A stretch of DNA of 25,934 nt from a virus: IMG/VR virus record IMGVR_UViG_3300028800_000288, positions 1-25,934 of that record. One strand, 5' to 3'. The notes beneath the pieces are model-generated. The model had not been told where the DNA came from. It saw nothing but the letters and a program-made list of their open reading frames with translations, and searched no databases. The translations under genes were made by a program, and so were the position numbers. This document shows positions 1,617-18,440 of this stretch, in pieces. The number at the start of each line of letters is the position of its first letter. Positions within the stretch are counted from its first letter, which is position 1.

Positions 1617-1800
1617 AAAGTGGACAGCGTGCGCCACACCTGGGCCGGAGTTGGTGGCTGAGATCGTCGGTAAAGAGGTGACCCTGACAATGCGGTTCGC
1701 CTCGCACTATGAAGCGATCGAGTTCTACGACAAATGCGTGCAATCCTGTCGAGCAGGGAACTTCACGCTGGAGCTTGGAGTGAAAACGAATGGCCGATGA
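1609..1800 (+). CDS. hypothetical 63-aa protein
   Basis: Small protein beginning MAEKWTACATPGPELVAEIV. It looks like one compact alpha/beta unit: a strand with VTLTMRFASHY, then a helix with EAIEFYDKCVQSC. Three cysteines are present. The ATG at 1609 has GGGAG at 1596-1600, eight bases away, so it is preferred over the upstream TTG at 1603. It overlaps the previous stop by eight bases and overlaps the next gene start (1790) by eleven. The tight packing supports it being real, but function is unknown. Confidence 0.6.
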   Translation: MAEKWTACATPGPELVAEIVGKEVTLTMRFASHYEAIEFYDKCVQSCRAGNFTLELGVKTNGR

Positions 1801-2260
1801 CGAACTGACCTTCGCGAGCGGTGCCAATGATCAGATGACCGAGCGCGGCATGTCGAACCAGTTCGGCAGCTACACCATGGCGCAGTACGACGGCACCAAT
1901 AGGTGTGGCTGGCAGCCGTTGTGCGACAAGGTGCTGGTGCTCGCTGACCAGCCGGCTCCCTCGCTGAACTGGACCGATGCCGATGGTAAGGCGATTGAGT
2001 TCGTGCTGACCGACAAGACGCAGGAGGATGCCGGCTTCGCCGCCATCACCGGCGTGCTGGTGGCCGTCGGTCCGCAGGCGTTCGCCTACGATTCGCACCG
2101 CGTGGTGCACTGGGAAGGCAAGCGGCCGCAACCCGGCGACCGGGTGACGTTCCGCAAGTATGCCGGCCAGATGTACACCGGGCGCGATGGCCTCGGTTAC
2201 CGCATCATGGAGGATCGGCTGATCGACGCGGTCGAGGTGGCTGACGTGCCTCCGGAGTAG
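1790..2260 (+). CDS. phage GroES/Cpn10-like co-chaperonin
   Basis: Co-chaperonins cap the GroEL folding chamber; phage versions (T4 gp31 is the classic case) help fold the coat protein. The Cpn10 landmarks appear in order. PLCDKVLVL at 43-51 matches the PLxDRVxV strand. A mobile-loop region at 52-86 contains FVLT at 71-74, resembling the GroEL-binding IVL tripeptide. GVLVAVG is at 88-94, PGDRVTFRKYAG at 115-126, and YRIMEDRLIDAVE at 137-149. At 156 residues it is longer than GroES (about 97) because of a roughly 40-residue N-terminal extension and a longer middle segment. The ATG at 1790 follows TTGGAGTG. Its place just before scaffold and coat suits a capsid-folding role, which is inferred. 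Confidence 0.8.
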   Translation: MADDELTFASGANDQMTERGMSNQFGSYTMAQYDGTNRCGWQPLCDKVLVLADQPAPSLNWTDADGKAIEFVLTDKTQEDAGFAAITGVLVAVGPQAFAYDSHRVVHWEGKRPQPGDRVTFRKYAGQMYTGRDGLGYRIMEDRLIDAVEVADVPPE

Positions 2261-4742: not shown

Positions 4743-5651
4743 ATGCCCGTGATCACAACCGGAAGTCATCCTAAGGCACTTTGGCCCGGGATTCGGGCCT
4801 GGTGGGGACGCAGCTACAGCGAGCACGTCCCCGAGTATCCGGACCTGTTCGAGATCGACACTTCGGACAAAGCCTACGAAGAGGAACCGGAGATCACTGG
4901 GTTCGGCCTGGCGCCGGTGAAGCCGCAGGGTCAGCAGATCTTCTACGACACCGAGGTCCAGGGACCCGTCTCGCGCTTCACGCATGTGGCCTACGCGCTC
5001 GGGTTCATCGTGACGTTTGAGGAACTGAGGGACGATCTGTACGAGGTGGTGGCCAAGCGGCGCGCGCAGCAGCTTGCGTTCTCCATGCGACAGACCAAGG
5101 AAAACGTGCTGTCGGCCGTCTACAATCAGGGCTTCAACAGCAGCTTCCCTGGCGCCGACGGCGTGTCACTGTTCTCGGCATCGCACCCGACCCTCTCAGG
5201 CAATCAGTCGAACCTGCTGACGGTGGCCGCCGACATCTCCGAACTCGCGATCGAGGACATGGTCATCCAGATTATGAACATGACCAACAACCGCGGGCTG
5301 AAGATCAGCGGTCTACCTCTCTCGCTGAACGTGTCGACCAGCCAGTGGTTCGAGGCCAATCGCATCTACCACTCGATCCTGCAGAACGACACGGCGAACA
5401 ACGCCATCAACGTGCTGCGGGCGACCGGCGCCTTCCCGAAGGGCATCAAGGTCAACCACTACTTCTCGTCGGCGACGGCCTGGTTCATCCGCACGAACAT
5501 CCCCCGCGGGATGCAGTACTTCGAGCGCGACAAGATCACCTTTGATCAGGACAACGATTTCGACACAAAGAACGCGAAGGCAGCCTGCTACGAGCGTTAT
5601 TCGGCCTTCTGGGCCGATTGGCGCGGTGCCTTCGGAACGCCCGGCGTCTGA
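4743..5651 (+). CDS. major capsid protein, Mu gpT-like (HK97 fold)
   Basis: This forms the head shell. At 302 residues it is close to Mu gpT in size. Its N-terminal half has the expected pattern: TDKAYEEEPEITGFG (about 40-54), QQIFYDTEVQGPVSRFTHV, then AYALGFIVTFEELRDDLYE. These are the strands and helix that I recall preceding the spine helix in this group. LFSASHPTLSGNQSN follows near residue 142, and a P-domain-like region sits in the second half (GLPLSLNVSTSQW, KGIKVNHYFSSATAWF). A strong AGGAGAG precedes ATG 4743. Scaffold upstream and position support the call. HK97 fold is inferred from family resemblance. Confidence 0.82.
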   Translation: MPVITTGSHPKALWPGIRAWWGRSYSEHVPEYPDLFEIDTSDKAYEEEPEITGFGLAPVKPQGQQIFYDTEVQGPVSRFTHVAYALGFIVTFEELRDDLYEVVAKRRAQQLAFSMRQTKENVLSAVYNQGFNSSFPGADGVSLFSASHPTLSGNQSNLLTVAADISELAIEDMVIQIMNMTNNRGLKISGLPLSLNVSTSQWFEANRIYHSILQNDTANNAINVLRATGAFPKGIKVNHYFSSATAWFIRTNIPRGMQYFERDKITFDQDNDFDTKNAKAACYERYSAFWADWRGAFGTPGV

Positions 5652-5747: not shown

Positions 5748-5990
5748 ATGGCTGAGAAAGAGGGCGGACACGGCGCCGAGCACAAGATGGCTGAGGTGCA
5801 CGTCCACCATCACCATCACCACCACCACGCTGGCGGCAAGAAGGCCGCGATGCACGAGGGTGGCAAGAAGCATCACGGCGAGTCCAAGGCCGAGCACAAG
5901 ATGGCTGGCCGGAAGGGCGGTAAGGCGGAGGCTCGCAAGAAGGAGCACCGCAAGGCCGAACACAAGAAGGCCGAGCACAAGAAGAAGTAG
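5748..5990 (+). CDS. His/Lys-rich protein with natural octahistidine run
   Basis: An 80-residue protein with about 18 His and 18 Lys. Residues 20-27 are eight consecutive His, preceded by VHV and coded by mixed CAC/CAT codons. AEHKMA occurs twice (10-15 and 48-53), and KAEHKK occurs twice in tandem at the C-terminus (69-74 and 74-79), which ends in KKK. A strong GGAAGGA upstream of ATG 5748 argues for real, efficient translation directly after the coat gene. The composition suggests metal (Ni/Zn/Cu) and/or nucleic-acid binding, possibly packed in the head; function is inference only. The 96 bases between coat and this gene hold one 31-codon GTG frame (5660-5755) without a ribosome site, which I do not call. 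Confidence 0.75.
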   Translation: MAEKEGGHGAEHKMAEVHVHHHHHHHHAGGKKAAMHEGGKKHHGESKAEHKMAGRKGGKAEARKKEHRKAEHKKAEHKKK

Positions 5991-6074: not shown

Positions 6075-6470
6075 ATGGGTTCGATGTATGTGTTGAGGCT
6101 GGACTACAAGAACGGCAGGCGGTCCGAGTATGTCTGGGCGAACGGTCCGGACGGCGGTCTCGGCCAGGCCAAGGCCAATTACGACGTCGCGAAGGACTGC
6201 ATGGCGCGCGGCGCCTTTGGGTCCATCACGGATGAGGCTGGCCGTGAGGCCGGCGTCCGCGGCACCGAACTGATCTCCGTCGAGCTTGGTGACCCGGCGA
6301 TCGAGGCGCAGGTCGGCTACCTGCTCCAGGGCGAGCTGCAGGCCGTGCACGCGAAGTATGGTCCGCCTCCTGCTCCTGCACGGGAGCAGCAAGGGCAGTG
6401 GCCACCGGCGCCGGTGGAGGACAACGGCTACCAGCCCGCGATCGGCGGTGGTCCAAGGTTCGCCGCGTGA
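6075..6470 (+). CDS. hypothetical 131-aa protein coupled to the sponge candidate
   Basis: Unrecognised. Residues 1-95 look like one small alpha/beta domain beginning MGSMYVLRLDYKNGRRSEYV, then a helix (GQAKANYDVAKDCMARGAFG), a beta strand with ELISVELGD and a final helix (EAQVGYLLQGELQAVHAKY). The last 35 residues are Pro/Gln/Gly-rich and probably disordered. An in-frame ATG at 6084 is a possible alternative start. The stop overlaps the ATG of the next gene (TGATG at 6468-6472), so the two should be translated together. That pairing makes a shared accessory role possible but does not prove it. Confidence 0.65.
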   Translation: MGSMYVLRLDYKNGRRSEYVWANGPDGGLGQAKANYDVAKDCMARGAFGSITDEAGREAGVRGTELISVELGDPAIEAQVGYLLQGELQAVHAKYGPPPAPAREQQGQWPPAPVEDNGYQPAIGGGPRFAA

Positions 6471-6718
6471 TGGCCACGCATGAAGGACTGCCGGTCGCCG
6501 GCTACCATTCGCAGAATGATTCAGCGATCGAACTGGTCAACAAGAACAAGGTGATCGAGGAGCAGGTGCTGCGCATCATCGACGCTGCGCAGAAGAACGG
6601 CTTCGGTGATCCTCGGTGGCTGGCCATCGCGCGCACTGACATCGAGAAAGCGTTCATGGCACTGAACCGGGCGATCTTTCAGCCGGGCCGGATCAAGCTG
6701 CCAGGGGATCCTGACTGA
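6470..6718 (+). CDS. Acb2/Tad1-type hairpin protein, candidate cyclic-nucleotide sponge (anti-CBASS/anti-Thoeris)
   Basis: An 82-residue protein matching my recollection of the Acb2/Tad1 hairpin-domain family: small helical phage proteins that oligomerise and sequester signalling nucleotides made by CBASS (cyclic di/trinucleotides) or Thoeris (gcADPR) defence. Visible features are GY at 11-12, N24 and K27 spaced as in the family's GY...N..K signature, a long first helix (about 18-42), then DPRWLAIARTDIEKAFMALN and RAIFQP (47-72), the family's hallmark second helix. Y12 and K27 align by spacing with the Y11/K26 nucleotide-binding pair I recall from Acb2 of phage PaMx33. The upstream in-frame extension is a read of the previous gene; ATG 6470 is coupled to its stop. 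Family membership is fairly sure; ligand and activity are inferred. Confidence 0.8.
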   Translation: MATHEGLPVAGYHSQNDSAIELVNKNKVIEEQVLRIIDAAQKNGFGDPRWLAIARTDIEKAFMALNRAIFQPGRIKLPGDPD

Positions 6719-6739
6719 CCAATTTGGAAAGGTGTGAAA

Positions 6740-7015
6740 ATGACGGCAACGATCAACGTGACGGCCAATGGCCACGGTAGCTTCACGATTTCCGGCAACA
6801 CCGGGATCGCGGCGGCAACCATGGTCGGGCTCAGCTTGTCCTACGTCGGCGGTGTGAATGACGGCAAGACTGGCCCAAGTGTGGTCCTGGCGACGGATAC
6901 CAGTGGCAATTACACATGGACCACGCTGACCCCAAGCGGGACCATGCAAGCGAACTTGTTCCCGATGCAGCCGAGCAACGCCGAGGTATCGAGCGCGCCG
7001 CCGTTCCACACCTGA
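6740..7015 (+). CDS. small beta-rich hypothetical protein, 91 aa
   Basis: The product MTATINVTANGHGSFTISGN... alternates hydrophobic and Thr/Ser/Gly residues and should fold as beta strands. It has no Cys and no membrane segment, and ends in a Pro-rich tail. ATG 6740 has GGAAAGG seven bases upstream, so I prefer it to the GTG at 6734. Its composition resembles other small virion-surface proteins nearby, so a minor structural or decoration protein is likely, but it is not identified. Confidence 0.65.
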   Translation: MTATINVTANGHGSFTISGNTGIAAATMVGLSLSYVGGVNDGKTGPSVVLATDTSGNYTWTTLTPSGTMQANLFPMQPSNAEVSSAPPFHT

Positions 7016-7044: not shown

Positions 7045-7158
7045 GCCTATGGTGCGCATGCGCGAGAGCAGCCGCGTTCCCTCCCCTTGTGTCCCAAGCG
7101 TGGGTAAGCGTCGGTGCGAATCCGGCGGGCACTGCACCGGAGTACGCGCACCATGGGC
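7045..7158 (+). promoter_or_regulatory. predicted multi-branched structured RNA closing over the start codon of the beta-helix gene
   Basis: The 137-base gap between 7015 and 7153 holds nested complementary segments. P1 pairs 7045-7057 (GCCTATGGTGCGC) with 7146-7158 (GCGCACCATGGGC): 13 pairs, one T/G, and it contains the ATG at 7153. Inside are CGCG 7061-7064 with CGCG 7073-7076, CCCA 7093-7096 with TGGG 7101-7104, and either CGGTGC 7112-7117 with GCACCG 7134-7139, or a T-arm-like stem 7110-7114/7122-7126 with the seven-base loop TGCGAAT. P1 would hide the start codon and the weak CGGAG site, so a riboswitch-like or timing control of translation is possible. The ligand, if any, is unknown. 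Confidence 0.45.
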
Positions 7159-8094
7159 TTCACCAATTTCCCCAACGGCATCACCTCGCTTGGCATCCCG
7201 ACCTTTGGCACGGGCGGCATCCCTCCGTTCACCGGCAATTACTTCTTCGTCGAGGAGGTGACGACTGCCGGCGTTGCGGCCGGACAGGGCACCGCGCAGT
7301 CGCCGTTCAACACGCTGGACCAGGCGCTCGCACAGTGCGTTGCCGGCAACAACGATGTGGTGTTCCTGATCGGCACCGTGCACGTCACGGCGACGGTGGC
7401 CTGGAGCAAGAACAACACGCACCTGATCGGCCTGTGCGCGCCATCCGATAATGACCGGGCCCGCATCTCCGCCTCGGGCGCCACCGTCTTCACGCCGCTG
7501 GTCAATGTCACCGCGTCCGGTTGCATCTTCATGGACATTGCGACGTTCCATGGCTTCGCCAACGCATCGGCGCAGATCTGCTGGGCTGAGGCCGGGGGCC
7601 GGAACTTCTACCAGGGCTGCCAGTTCCTCGGCATGGGCAATGCGACCGCAGCGGCGCAGACCGGCGGCCGTTCGCTGACCATCGCGGGGAGCGGCGAGAA
7701 CAAGTTCTACGACTGCACGATCGGCCTGGACACGATTTCCCGTGGCGTGGCGAATGCCTCGCTCGAGCTGTTGTCGGCGACGCCGCGAAACGTCATGCGC
7801 GGGTGCATCTTCCAGATGCTGGCGAGCGCCAGCACGCCGCTGCACATCACCGTCGGCTCTGGCGGCATGGATCGCTACCTGCTGTTGGACAAGTGCTCGA
7901 TGATCAACTGCGTGGACTCTGGTGGCAGCACGATCTCGGCGGCCATTGTCGCGAACGCGTCTGCTGGCGGCACTGTGCTGGTGCAGGACGGCTTCAGCGT
8001 CGGGGCCACTGCGATTGCGACCACCGGGCCGGTCCGCGGCACCGGCAACATCCCGACGGCCACCACCTCCGGCATTGCCATCGCGCTGACCTGA
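7153..8094 (+). CDS. beta-helix-like virion protein, probable fibre or spike
   Basis: A 313-residue protein starting MGFTNFPNGITSLGIPTFGT, a short virion-attachment-like head. Repeated short strands rich in Gly, Asn, Ala and Cys follow, in the style of a right-handed parallel beta-helix (for example NFYQGCQFLGMGNATA and ENKFYDCTIGLDTISRG, each a strand-turn with an aromatic or Cys ladder). The C-terminus is a Thr/Ala/Gly-rich beta end. No clear pectate-lyase, glycosidase or deacetylase triad is visible, so an enzymatic depolymerase role cannot be asserted. In-frame upstream codons exist, but ATG 7153 is preferred because homologous-looking proteins start this way and CGGAG lies ten bases upstream. 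Translation may be controlled by the predicted RNA fold around the start. Confidence 0.65.
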   Translation: MGFTNFPNGITSLGIPTFGTGGIPPFTGNYFFVEEVTTAGVAAGQGTAQSPFNTLDQALAQCVAGNNDVVFLIGTVHVTATVAWSKNNTHLIGLCAPSDNDRARISASGATVFTPLVNVTASGCIFMDIATFHGFANASAQICWAEAGGRNFYQGCQFLGMGNATAAAQTGGRSLTIAGSGENKFYDCTIGLDTISRGVANASLELLSATPRNVMRGCIFQMLASASTPLHITVGSGGMDRYLLLDKCSMINCVDSGGSTISAAIVANASAGGTVLVQDGFSVGATAIATTGPVRGTGNIPTATTSGIAIALT

Positions 8095-8116
8095 TAGCCG
8101 GATAGGAGGCGAAGAC

Positions 8117-8425
8117 ATGCGTCCTGTCACGATCACCGTCACGAACACGGGCACGTCGGCGCCTGTGATGATGGACGCGCTCGCGTGCCCGTTCAACGTG
8201 GGGATCGGGTGCGTCATCTCTGGTGCACCGGTCTACAACGTCGAGCACTCCTTTGAGTATCCGCCGGCGAACTGGTTCATCAATGCCAATATCAACGGCG
8301 GCACGATCAGCGCGGACACCAACTATATGTTCCCGGTTCGGGCGATTCGACTGCATATCACCGGCGTCGGCAATGCCACCGACAGCGTCACCATGACGAT
8401 CCTGCAGGGCAGCAACTCGGGGTAA
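8117..8425 (+). CDS. small beta-rich virion-type protein, 102 aa
   Basis: Begins MRPVTITVTNTGTSAPVMMD and is beta-rich throughout, with a conserved-looking middle (YNVEHSFEYPPANWFINANI) and a C-terminal strand pattern VRAIRLHITGVGNATDSVTM typical of small phage virion beta proteins that measure a mean field or decoration value. An excellent AGGAGG lies at 8104-8109 before ATG 8117, suggesting high expression. One base separates its stop from the next gene. A virion role is inferred. Confidence 0.65.
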   Translation: MRPVTITVTNTGTSAPVMMDALACPFNVGIGCVISGAPVYNVEHSFEYPPANWFINANINGGTISADTNYMFPVRAIRLHITGVGNATDSVTMTILQGSNSG

Positions 8426-8783: not shown

Positions 8784-9322
8784 TGGCAGACGACCGCCAT
8801 TATGTGCCAGGCGACAACTATATTTTGGACGATTTAAGCGGGTTCAAAATTCGTGCCCGTAAGGCGCGCATCATTCCTGGCGGACAGACTGGCAAACTGG
8901 CGGTAGCGCCATCCAGGTGGGAGCCGCAGCAACCGCAGGATTTCGTCCGTGGCGTACGGGACGATCAGACCGTCGCTCTGTCCCGGCCGCGGCAGGTCAA
9001 TCAGTTCACGCTGGTCGGGACAACGGTAGCGGCGCCCTCGGCGCGCGGCACGCGGTTCATAACGGTGGCGAGCAGCGCGGGCTTCACTGCGGGCAACGTG
9101 ATCCAGATCATGCTGGACAGCGGCGTGAACTTCCTGACGGCCATCGCGGCGATCAACGGGAACGTCTTCACGATCCCGCAGAATTTGCCATTTTCGGTGG
9201 GCAGCCTGTACGGGGATCCGATCGAGAACAGCGTGCTTCTGCGGAAGGACCTGGTGCTGCCGGTGGTGTTCGTGCTCGGTGAGCCCGGGCAGGACATCTT
9301 TGGGTTCAACGTGCTCGGATGA
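8783..9322 (+). CDS. virion-associated protein with the LDxGxxF beta domain, 179 aa
   Basis: The N-terminal part (1-75) contains the sequence QQPQDFVRGVRDDQTVALSR, seen in hypothetical phage structural proteins. Residues about 80-148 form a small beta domain with VASSAGFTAGNVIQIMLDSG followed by FLTAIAAINGN and LP. That domain recurs in the gp4-like protein (12606) and the gp10-like protein (13622) of this window. The upstream in-frame extension to 8615 is a shadow of the Ig-like gene; ATG 8783 is coupled to the upstream stop (TGATG). A role on or near the tail is inferred from the shared domain. Confidence 0.65.
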   Translation: MADDRHYVPGDNYILDDLSGFKIRARKARIIPGGQTGKLAVAPSRWEPQQPQDFVRGVRDDQTVALSRPRQVNQFTLVGTTVAAPSARGTRFITVASSAGFTAGNVIQIMLDSGVNFLTAIAAINGNVFTIPQNLPFSVGSLYGDPIENSVLLRKDLVLPVVFVLGEPGQDIFGFNVLG

Positions 9323-10020
9323 CAAACTTCGTCGACGGCGAGACGCTTACTGCGGTTGACCTGAATGCAGCCTTTGCCGGCGTCACGCCTCCGTCATCTG
9401 ACCTTTTGGGCGGCACCGGATCGGCCTTTGTCCCGATCGTGGTTGGGTCTGGCCTCGTACTGTCGGGGAGCACGCTGACCGCGACGGGCGGCTTGATCAG
9501 CTTTGGCAACGGGCTTGTCGAAAGCAGCAACACCGTGTCGGTGCGTGCCGGTGTCGGTCTGGATTTCAGTGGCAATACGCTGATCGCCAACTGGCAAGAG
9601 GGGCCTGTCGCCAGTTTTGCCAATGGCGTCACGGTCGATGCTGGCACACTGAAGGTCCAGTGGAGCGCTGGCACCGTCATTGCGATCGGGACAGGCCTGT
9701 CTTCGTCTGGGGGCACCCTGACGGTTACCGGGGGCACCGGTAGTGTCACGTCTGTCGTTGCTGGCTCTGGCCTTGCTGGGGGCACAATCACGACGGCTGG
9801 TACTGTCAGTATCGCCGCGATCACGGCGACCAGTCTGTTCGGCAATGCGGGGACTGTTGCGGCGGTGCCGGCTGCGGTTGCGATCGGAAGCGGGTTGTCC
9901 CTCTCAACAGGTGGCACGCTGACAGCGACCGGGTCTGGTGGCTCTGTCACCAGTGTCATCACGAGTGCGTCGCCATACCTAACCGCAGGGACAATCACTT
10001 CGGCCGGGACGATTACGTAG
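9319..10020 (+). CDS. tail fibre, N-terminal part, ending at an in-frame TAG
   Basis: Begins MTNFVDGETLTAVDLNAAFA, a common opening of phage tail-fibre proteins, and continues as a long run of Gly/Thr/Ser-rich strands with repeats such as GSVTSVVAGSGLAGGTITTA, typical of trimeric fibrous shafts. Translation stops at TAG 10018-10020, but the same frame continues uninterrupted to 11283 with the same repeat style. The codon opposite TAG in the internal duplicate copy is GCG (Ala). The gene therefore most likely specifies one 654-residue fibre, and the TAG is a mutation, a sequencing error or a leaky stop. TAG ends several other genes here, so it is not globally recoded. Confidence 0.72.
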   Translation: MTNFVDGETLTAVDLNAAFAGVTPPSSDLLGGTGSAFVPIVVGSGLVLSGSTLTATGGLISFGNGLVESSNTVSVRAGVGLDFSGNTLIANWQEGPVASFANGVTVDAGTLKVQWSAGTVIAIGTGLSSSGGTLTVTGGTGSVTSVVAGSGLAGGTITTAGTVSIAAITATSLFGNAGTVAAVPAAVAIGSGLSLSTGGTLTATGSGGSVTSVITSASPYLTAGTITSAGTIT

Positions 10021-10161
10021 GCCTCCGCAGCGGCTTCGACGCTGATCGGGAATGCAACCACGGCTAGTGCGGTGCCCACGGCCGTCCCTATTGGGTCTGG
10101 ATTGGCTTTCAGTAGTGGGACTCTGACGGCCACCGGTTCTGGCGGCTCGGTGACCAAGGTG
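9877..10161 (+). repeat. fibre internal duplication, copy A (contains the TAG)
   Basis: This 95-codon segment aligns without gaps to 10480-10764 at an offset of 603 bases. In an 87-base stretch I compared (9931-10017) about 22 bases differ, nearly all at third codon positions, with a single Ile/Val change. The protein is thus conserved while the DNA has drifted. Confidence 0.8.
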
Positions 10162-11283
10162 TCTACGGCGACGCCAATCGCCGGCGGTGACATCACCACG
10201 GCAGGCACCATCAGCTTGAACAGTGGCGCCGGGTTGCACGTCACCAGCGGGACGCTCCTGGCGGACTGGAGCGGCGGCACGGTTACCTCGGTCGGCACCG
10301 GGCTTGCCATAACGAGCGGCACGATCGCTGCTACGGGCACGGCTGGCGTGTCGTCCGTCGTCGCTGGCACCGGGCTGTCAGGCGGAACCATCACCAGCAC
10401 CGGCACAGTGGCGCTGGCGACGCGCACGGCCAGCACGCTGATGGGTAACCCGGGGACTGCGGCGGCCACGCCGAGCGACGTAGCGATCGGGTCTGGGCTT
10501 TCCCTTTCGACTGCCGGAACGCTGACAGCAACCGGCAGCGGAGGTTCTGTCACCAGCGTTGTAACGAGTGCATCGCCCTATCTGACTGCGGGCACGATCA
10601 CCTCGGCTGGCACGATCACGGCGGCATCTGCCGCGGCGAGCACTCTGATCGGCAATGCCACAACAGCAAGTGCTGTTCCTACCGCTGTGCCAATCGGTTC
10701 CGGCCTCGCGTTCACCAGCGGCACCCTCACGGCGACAGGATCGGGCGGCACGGTCACCTCGGTGGTTTCTGGGGCTGGTCTGCATGCAGGCACGATCACC
10801 ACGTCTGGCACCCTGCTGGCGGACTGGAATGGCGGGACCGTGGCGGCCCTGGCGACCGGTCTGTCGATCTCCTCGAGCACGTTGACGCCCCAGTGGCAGG
10901 CAGGCTCGGCGTCCACGCTGGGCGGCGCTCTGGCCATCAACAGCGGCACCATCAGTCCGCAGAACCAGGGCACACTCACGCTCTCCGGCACCACGACGGG
11001 TACGATCAATCCGTCCGGCGTCGACAGCTTCTTGGTCAACAACGGGACGGCCGCTGGCACCATCGCGATTTCACCGGGTTTTCAGGGGCAGCGACTGCGT
11101 GTCGAAATCAAGCAGGGTGCGACGGCGCACACGATCACGTTCACCAGCACGGTCAGCTTTGGCACCACGGTGACCAGCTACACTGCGACGAACACCGCCA
11201 GTGCGCGTGATCTCTGCCAGCTGTTTTGTGTCGATGGGACGAGTTGGGCATTCGCCGCAGTGAGCCAAGGATTCACGATATGA
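10072..11283 (+). CDS. tail fibre, C-terminal part (same frame as 9319-10020)
   Basis: The frame runs directly on from the TAG at 10018. The first possible start is GTG 10072, which has no ribosome site, so independent translation is doubtful. It carries further GTxTSV...GTITSAGT repeats, then a non-repetitive C-terminal domain (about 320-403) with GFQGQRLRVEIKQGATAHTI and AFAAVSQGFTI, of the kind that ends tail fibres and trimerises or binds receptor. If the TAG is read through it completes a 654-residue fibre; if not, the particle would lack the fibre tip. Its stop overlaps the next ATG (ATGA). Confidence 0.65.
   Translation: MPTAVPIGSGLAFSSGTLTATGSGGSVTKVSTATPIAGGDITTAGTISLNSGAGLHVTSGTLLADWSGGTVTSVGTGLAITSGTIAATGTAGVSSVVAGTGLSGGTITSTGTVALATRTASTLMGNPGTAAATPSDVAIGSGLSLSTAGTLTATGSGGSVTSVVTSASPYLTAGTITSAGTITAASAAASTLIGNATTASAVPTAVPIGSGLAFTSGTLTATGSGGTVTSVVSGAGLHAGTITTSGTLLADWNGGTVAALATGLSISSSTLTPQWQAGSASTLGGALAINSGTISPQNQGTLTLSGTTTGTINPSGVDSFLVNNGTAAGTIAISPGFQGQRLRVEIKQGATAHTITFTSTVSFGTTVTSYTATNTASARDLCQLFCVDGTSWAFAAVSQGFTI
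10480..10764 (+). repeat. fibre internal duplication, copy B
   Basis: Partner of 9877-10161. It has GCG at 10621-10623 where copy A has TAG, then the same ASAAASTLIGNATTASAVPT protein sequence with different codons. Confidence 0.8.
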
Positions 11284-17511: not shown

Positions 17512-17886
17512 ATGTTTGCAAGCCGCGAGCATGGAATCACGCATGTGTCTTCGCCGATCCAGTCCCTCCTCATTGGGCAACTCTCGACGGGTCCGATCCT
17601 GCTGTACACGTCGGCGACCGGCGTTTGGACACAGATCAGCAAGGTCACCTGCCTCAACACAGACTCGGTTTCCAGGACTGTGACCTTCTGGGTGACCACT
17701 TCGGCAGTCAGCCCGACGGACCCTTTCCTCACTACCGATGCGCAGGGGATACTGCCTGGAGGCACGTTCAATAGCCCGAATGAAGTGGGTGTTGTGCTCA
17801 ATCCTGGGTATTCGATCTGGGGCGCTGCCTCCGCTCCCGCCGTGATAAACTGCAACATCTCTGGCGTGCTGACGGTGTCATCGTGA
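17512..17886 (+). CDS. small beta-sandwich virion protein, 124 aa
   Basis: The product begins MFASREHGITHVSSPIQSLL. The core SKVTCLNTDSVSRTVTFWVT, then NEVGVVLNPGYSIWGAASAP and a final strand ISGVLTVSS, matches the short beta fold seen in many phage virion proteins and resembles part of the 238-aa protein upstream. The start is ATG 17512, with no strong ribosome site and a possible masking stem. The stop overlaps the next gene's GTG start (GTGA). Confidence 0.62.
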   Translation: MFASREHGITHVSSPIQSLLIGQLSTGPILLYTSATGVWTQISKVTCLNTDSVSRTVTFWVTTSAVSPTDPFLTTDAQGILPGGTFNSPNEVGVVLNPGYSIWGAASAPAVINCNISGVLTVSS

Positions 17887-18440
17887 AGCACTTCAGACTC
17901 CTGCGCAGCGGCTTCGATGTTGGGCCGGTGGTCGAGCAGCTCGCGGCGCACCCGGAACTCTGGGACCAGTACCCCGCGCGCACGGCATTGGCCGGATCGC
18001 CGCACGTCGAGACGTCGGACATCTGGCTGCGGTTTCGGGATCAAGGCGAACTCGTCAGGCGCGAGGACTACGGCACGCCACACTTCGCGGTGTTCTATCC
18101 TGCGTGGTATGCGCTGCCGGCCGCGCACGCGATCGTCTTCCGACTGATGGCTGAGGTGAAGGCCGTCTACCTGGGCGGCATCCTGATCACGCGCATCCCG
18201 GCCGGGGCGTGCGTGCGACCGCATCATGACCGTGGCTCCTGGCACGCCGAGTACCTGAACACGAAGGTCTACGTCGTGCTGAAGGCGAACGATCAGTGCA
18301 CCAACTGGTGCGAGGATGAGCGCGTGATCATGCGACCAGGCGACGCTTGGGAGTTCGAGAACCTCCGAACGCACGGCGTCATCAACGATGGCGACACTGA
18401 GCGTCTGGCGCTGATCGTCACCATGAGGTGCGAGCCATGA
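17883..18440 (+). CDS. 2-oxoglutarate/Fe(II) dioxygenase, AspH-type
   Basis: These enzymes hydroxylate amino-acid side chains or other substrates using Fe(II), O2 and 2-oxoglutarate. The aspartyl/asparaginyl hydroxylase-like double-stranded beta-helix pattern is present: ILITRIPAGACVRPHHDRGS (100-119) contains the HxD metal pair H114/D116. The distal metal His is H164 in NLRTHGVINDG, and R174 (ERLALIVTMR) is placed to bind the co-substrate. GDAWEFEN at 153-160 is the expected strand before the distal His. It starts at GTG 17883, coupled to the previous stop. Such oxygenases are found in phages without known substrates; modification of a virion or cell-surface protein is a guess. Confidence 0.75.
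   Translation: MKHFRLLRSGFDVGPVVEQLAAHPELWDQYPARTALAGSPHVETSDIWLRFRDQGELVRREDYGTPHFAVFYPAWYALPAAHAIVFRLMAEVKAVYLGGILITRIPAGACVRPHHDRGSWHAEYLNTKVYVVLKANDQCTNWCEDERVIMRPGDAWEFENLRTHGVINDGDTERLALIVTMRCEP

Follow-up and report, generated by a model that had tools for sequence, protein, structure and literature searches.

The window (the whole stretch of DNA analysed, one IMG/VR virus record of 25,934 bases) carries an acb2-type gene that encodes an 82-aa protein (Table 1). The initial annotation had placed this gene between coat and fibre genes, and a position after the coat gene and ahead of further structural genes is borne out, with a major capsid protein (MCP) gene found upstream of it. The gene immediately preceding acb2 encodes a 131-aa protein, and the TGA stop codon of this gene shares its A with the acb2 ATG. 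The TGATG overlap is thus present as had been claimed, making translational coupling of the two genes plausible. Scans of IMG/VR with the single acb2 product, and with the 131-aa product, returned one near-identical contig only. Because contig L007 repeats the junction of capsid gene, 131-aa gene and acb2 with 99.96% identity over 4,503 bases, the arrangement is not an assembly artefact.

The window phage is podovirus-type. It encodes a gp7-like DNA ejection protein, and the relatives of its capsid protein include a Podoviridae record and phages of Roseobacter, Pelagibacter, Caulobacter and Alcaligenes. An 80-aa Lys/His-rich protein encoded between the MCP and 131-aa genes contains a run of eight histidines (HVHHHHHHHH), an odd natural His-tag; a run of 8-10 histidines is also kept downstream of the capsid gene in three relatives (L134, L139 and L145). 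A GroES-like co-chaperonin gene lies in the structural cluster, and the same position is annotated as GroES in relatives L208-L210. The probable fibre gene is repeat-rich and is interrupted by a single in-frame TAG with the frame open on both sides, for which a nonsense change, a sequencing error and recoding are candidate explanations. An aspartyl/asparaginyl beta-hydroxylase-like protein is encoded in the late cluster by a gene that overlaps the next one, and a homologous pair is found in L054.

Table 1. Features of the window
Feature	Position	Strand	Basis
GroES-like co-chaperonin gene	1790..2260		Pfam Cpn10 E 0.006, below cut-off
Major capsid protein gene	4743..5651	+	Pfam Phage_capsid_4 E 4.5e-8, phrog_371; relatives annotated major capsid protein
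80-aa Lys/His-rich protein	5748..5990		
131-aa late-module gene, neighbour not partner of acb2	6075..6470	+	Homologues downstream of MCP gene in 16/83 relatives
TGATG stop/start overlap of acb2 with upstream gene	6468..6472	+	Read directly
acb2-type gene, 82 aa, predicted cyclic-nucleotide sponge by homology	6470..6718	+	Pfam, PDB profile search, AlphaFold2/Foldseek, residue conservation
93-aa gene after acb2	6734..7015	+	ORF list
326-aa late gene, downstream edge of slot	7114..8094	+	Homologue directly after 131-aa homologue in L134 and L145
Probable fibre gene	9319..11283		
In-frame TAG in probable fibre gene	10018..10020		
Aspartyl/asparaginyl beta-hydroxylase-like protein	17883..18440		PF05118 E 2e-9
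gp7-like DNA ejection protein	18826		phrog_598

Family, fold and pocket residues of the 82-aa protein

The 82-aa translation, read directly from the ORF, contains the motifs DPRWLAIARTDIEKAFMALN-RAIFQP quoted in the initial annotation, with Y12, N24 and K27 at the positions claimed there. Membership in the Acb2/Tad1 hairpin family, also proposed there, is upheld by both sequence and fold. The Pfam hairpin family PF24729 matched the protein over the full length of the profile (1-58/58) and far above chance (E-value: 4.1e-17; 62.6 bits, cut-off 27), and 14 control genomes gave no match. No NCBIfam model matched the protein. A phmmer search of PDB with the protein itself found Acb2 (p26) at 7e-5, and a profile built from 18 phage relatives (A1) found 8h2j (2.9e-26), 8ixz (8.6e-26) and T4 Vs.4 7uq2 (5e-14), with nothing apart from Acb2 and Vs.4 at E < 0.1.

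With an 81-row alignment (A4) as input, AlphaFold2 predicted an Acb2 hairpin of two long helices (17-42 and 48-70) and nothing else, with a pLDDT of 89.7. When this model was compared with PDB using Foldseek, the top eight matches, each with a probability of 1.00, were without exception chains of Acb2 or Vs.4 (TM 0.63-0.73, E-values of 1.5e-3 to 1.1e-2). Such modest E-values reflect the small size of the protein, and the next match, with an E-value of 0.94, is clearly set apart from these eight. A weak AlphaFold model built from the single sequence had Vs.4 as its best fold match (E-value: 0.81). At 82 aa, the protein falls within the range of Acb2 (about 75-95 aa, no beta domain), and its modelled, hairpin-only architecture is that of Acb2. 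Based on sequence and fold, it is confirmed as a member of the Acb2 family, a kind of protein that is already known.

Compared with Acb2 of Pseudomonas phages (p26; 8h2j, 8h2x and 8ixz), the window protein has the same hairpin fold (TM about 0.73 over the query), the same Y/N/K pocket residues and RWLAI..T motif, and no extra domain. It differs in that identity is about 27-30%, the helix 1-2 insert is shorter, there are private invariant residues, and the C-terminus is an xRIxLPxD tail, whereas Pseudomonas-phage Acb2 ends at QPDSF. T4 Acb2 (Vs.4; 7uq2) has the same fold and, like the window protein, an FQP motif near the C-terminus, but the two are 28% identical across the region matched by fold. 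Two genes of Rhodobacter capsulatus phages, RcapMu gene 44 and RcWaterboi gene 42, are 53-54% identical to the window gene and belong to the same branch (the alpha branch, which centres on Alphaproteobacteria and is separated in the tree by a long branch from the gammaproteobacterial-phage Acb2 clade). Unlike the podovirus-type window phage, these phages are Mu-like, and their genes, which have the capsid region on one side and Mu gp36 on the other, are annotated as hypothetical proteins only; the RcapMu record already remarks "similar to cyclic-nucleotide binding domain".

The residue spacing noted in the initial annotation holds in alignment: Y12 and K27 align with chain positions Y11 and K26 of Pseudomonas-phage Acb2 8h2j, which we take to be nucleotide-pocket residues. 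In T4 Acb2, the counterparts of Y12 and T56 are Y8 and T68 (the 7uq2 chain numbering is one higher); there, Y8A is binding-deficient and T68M reduces affinity (PMC12657230). Across 119 alpha-branch sequences, conservation is 98% for Y12, 93% for N24, 99% for K27, 97% for R49, 92% for T56 and 100% for R67. Ten further residues (L7, P8, Q15, E30, E31, R35, E59, N66, F70 and R74) are 96-100% kept in these sequences and not conserved in eight gamma-clade sequences. The residue set common to both clades argues for the same binding mode; the private residue set, taken with the long branch, may leave room for another ligand preference.

The protein could be a sponge that prefers a different defence signal (gcADPR of Thoeris or another nucleotide), with a pocket reshaped by the invariant residues of the alpha branch. 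The hairpin domain in Pfam and the sponge principle are common to Acb2 and Tad1 (Thoeris anti-defence 1), and Tad1 binds cyclic nucleotides too (PMC12043709). In Tad1, however, an N-terminal beta sheet precedes the helices (PMC12043709), and this domain is absent from the window protein. No Tad1 chain was found among the PDB profile matches up to E 10 or among the 50 Foldseek matches listed, and the residues of the Acb2 pocket are retained. With the beta domain missing and the searches giving Acb2 and Vs.4 only, the anti-Thoeris function put forward in the initial annotation is not supported, and we consider a preferred ligand other than that of Acb2 to be unlikely.

Occurrence and placement of acb2

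When 83 loci with a related capsid protein were scanned using the acb2 family profile, an acb2-type gene was found in one (L134) within the stretches examined. In this relative, in which the capsid is 88% identical to that of the window, acb2 precedes the capsid gene by about 3 kb, shows 52% identity to the window acb2 and is flanked by a GroES-like gene (the counterpart of that in the window, which it follows) and a homologue of window gene 2311. In another close relative (L129; capsid 92% identical), acb2 is absent from the entire 55-kb record. L134 and L145 both have, in this order, the capsid gene, the His-rich gene, the 131-aa homologue and the 326-aa homologue (an additional ORF precedes the His-rich gene in L134), and no acb2 gene separates the 131-aa from the 326-aa homologue. 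This junction is an empty site, and the corresponding interval of the window is occupied by acb2 and the 93-aa gene together; no homologue of the 93-aa gene was found at this site in relatives. In a tree with few columns, the window acb2 is sister to that of L020 (100/88) and not to that of L134, and the L020 contig has no homologue of other window genes in the 8.4 kb examined. The simplest reading is that the window and L134 genes were acquired separately. As it is present or absent among close relatives, acb2 is cargo, not core, in this phage type.

A search of IMG/VR with an alpha-branch profile, relying on just two conserved peptide patterns, found at least 280 related contigs, of which 80 were kept. 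In GTDB species genomes, the same profile found 28 loci, nearly all in Alphaproteobacteria. The bacterial genomes over the cut-off numbered 6 of 385 and 7 of 369 in the two classes sampled, each count including the seed genome, and prevalence is low and alike in these two classes. A Mu-like capsid gene is nearby in 39 of 125 acb2 loci (assigned to this family from the records of RcapMu and RcWaterboi and from the Pfam family Mu gp36), and another 18 or so are near terminase/portal-type genes. By heuristic gene calls, the remaining loci are often beside DNA polymerase or other replication genes and some are beside portal/head genes; acb2 is therefore also carried away from the capsid gene.

To avoid selecting on acb2, Mu-like loci were drawn by the RcapMu capsid protein, giving 64 with gp36 detected downstream. 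An acb2 gene was present in 18 of the 64, in each case after the capsid gene and before gp36 with no change of strand, and both states were seen among Mu-like capsids that are 66-83% identical. The Mu-like capsid-gp36 interval is a fixed, optional cargo slot for acb2, and in the window, which represents an unrelated type of phage, the gene is similarly placed beside the capsid gene.

Such placement inside a structural cluster, here and behind the MCP gene in many Mu-like phages, could also suggest that the protein serves the head-tail module, either in the virion or during assembly, having kept the hairpin fold and lost nucleotide binding. This is very unlikely because the gene is dispensable: it is absent from 82 of the 83 capsid relatives (in the stretches examined) and from 46 of the 64 Mu-like loci. 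Relatives also occur beside replication genes, and the pocket residues are conserved.

The initial annotation had further suggested, from the TGATG coupling, that the 131-aa gene and acb2 form a single anti-defence module. Of the 83 capsid-relative loci, however, 16 have a member of the 131-aa family behind the capsid gene, so that this gene belongs to the late module of the phage, and none of the 16 has acb2 in the slot behind the 131-aa homologue. L134 does carry both genes, yet some 5 kb separates them, and no detectable homologue of the 131-aa gene was found in any of the 125 acb2 loci. The partner reading is largely refuted by this occurrence without acb2, and we find it scarcely credible.

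Several acb2 loci contain other small genes or longer versions of the protein. An apparent double acb2 in seven loci was considered as duplication and rejected, because the second entry is either a spurious ORF or some other small gene. In Mu-like phages L036, L098 and L115, a small protein (MTTKVTVxANHGWPVDV...DLLVHEVQP) is encoded directly ahead of acb2, about 200 bases upstream; in L114, L118 and L228 it shares an open frame with acb2 (a possible fusion), and in L222 it is present without acb2. In Rhizobium phage RHph_X2_26 (L003), a gene annotated as TIR domain-containing (7444-8249; DUF1937/DUF4406 by Pfam) is directly upstream of the acb2-type gene. Caulobacter phage Jess A (L005, 7704-8270) encodes a 188-aa version in which an N-terminal extension of roughly 100 aa, matching no known family, precedes the hairpin; Rhizobium phages likewise have N-terminal extensions.

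Predicted function and timing

By analogy with characterized Acb2, which sequesters cyclic nucleotides and does not degrade them (PMC12043709), the product of the window gene is most probably a sponge for the cyclic di- and trinucleotides that serve as CBASS signals, carried as cargo of the late cluster. By homology, packing of the long helices of the 82-aa chains would give a compact hexamer, with cyclic dinucleotides held in inter-chain pockets around Y12, N24, K27 and T56 and cyclic trinucleotides held in the central channel. With these signals sequestered, CBASS effectors would stay off.

Because acb2 is inserted in the late (capsid) cluster, it is probably produced together with the capsid; promoter evidence for late acb2 expression was looked for and not found. 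Phages deleted for acb2 evade CBASS via mutation of the capsid gene, and the wild-type capsid gene alone triggered no CBASS toxicity (PMC10419184). One Thoeris sensor recognises the major head protein (PMC12043709). With the sponge encoded close to the capsid, antidote and trigger would be coupled, and the use of a capsid-side slot by phages of two unrelated types is consistent with an antidote timed to capsid synthesis. We tentatively suggest, as a possibility only, that the alpha branch is a distinct sponge subfamily that has been placed repeatedly in the late cluster just behind the capsid gene, supplying the antidote in step with a protein that would trigger the defence on being made or assembled, and that has its own ligand range as a result of its extra invariant residues.

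A recent study describes Acb2 as relatively rare and confined to particular groups of phages (PMC11722364), and a review tally lists 239 phages, with the hosts named being mainly enteric bacteria, Pseudomonas and Vibrio (PMC12043709). The number of related IMG/VR contigs and the genome matches centred on Alphaproteobacteria indicate that the family is wider than in these accounts. While the kind of sponge is itself ordinary, what merits attention here is the size of the little-studied alpha branch and the recurrent capsid-side slot. As this slot is occupied or empty among close relatives, it can be tested whether the sponge is expressed late and in step with the capsid, and RcapMu gene 44 in Rhodobacter capsulatus, a laboratory host, would be a ready test case for this timing.
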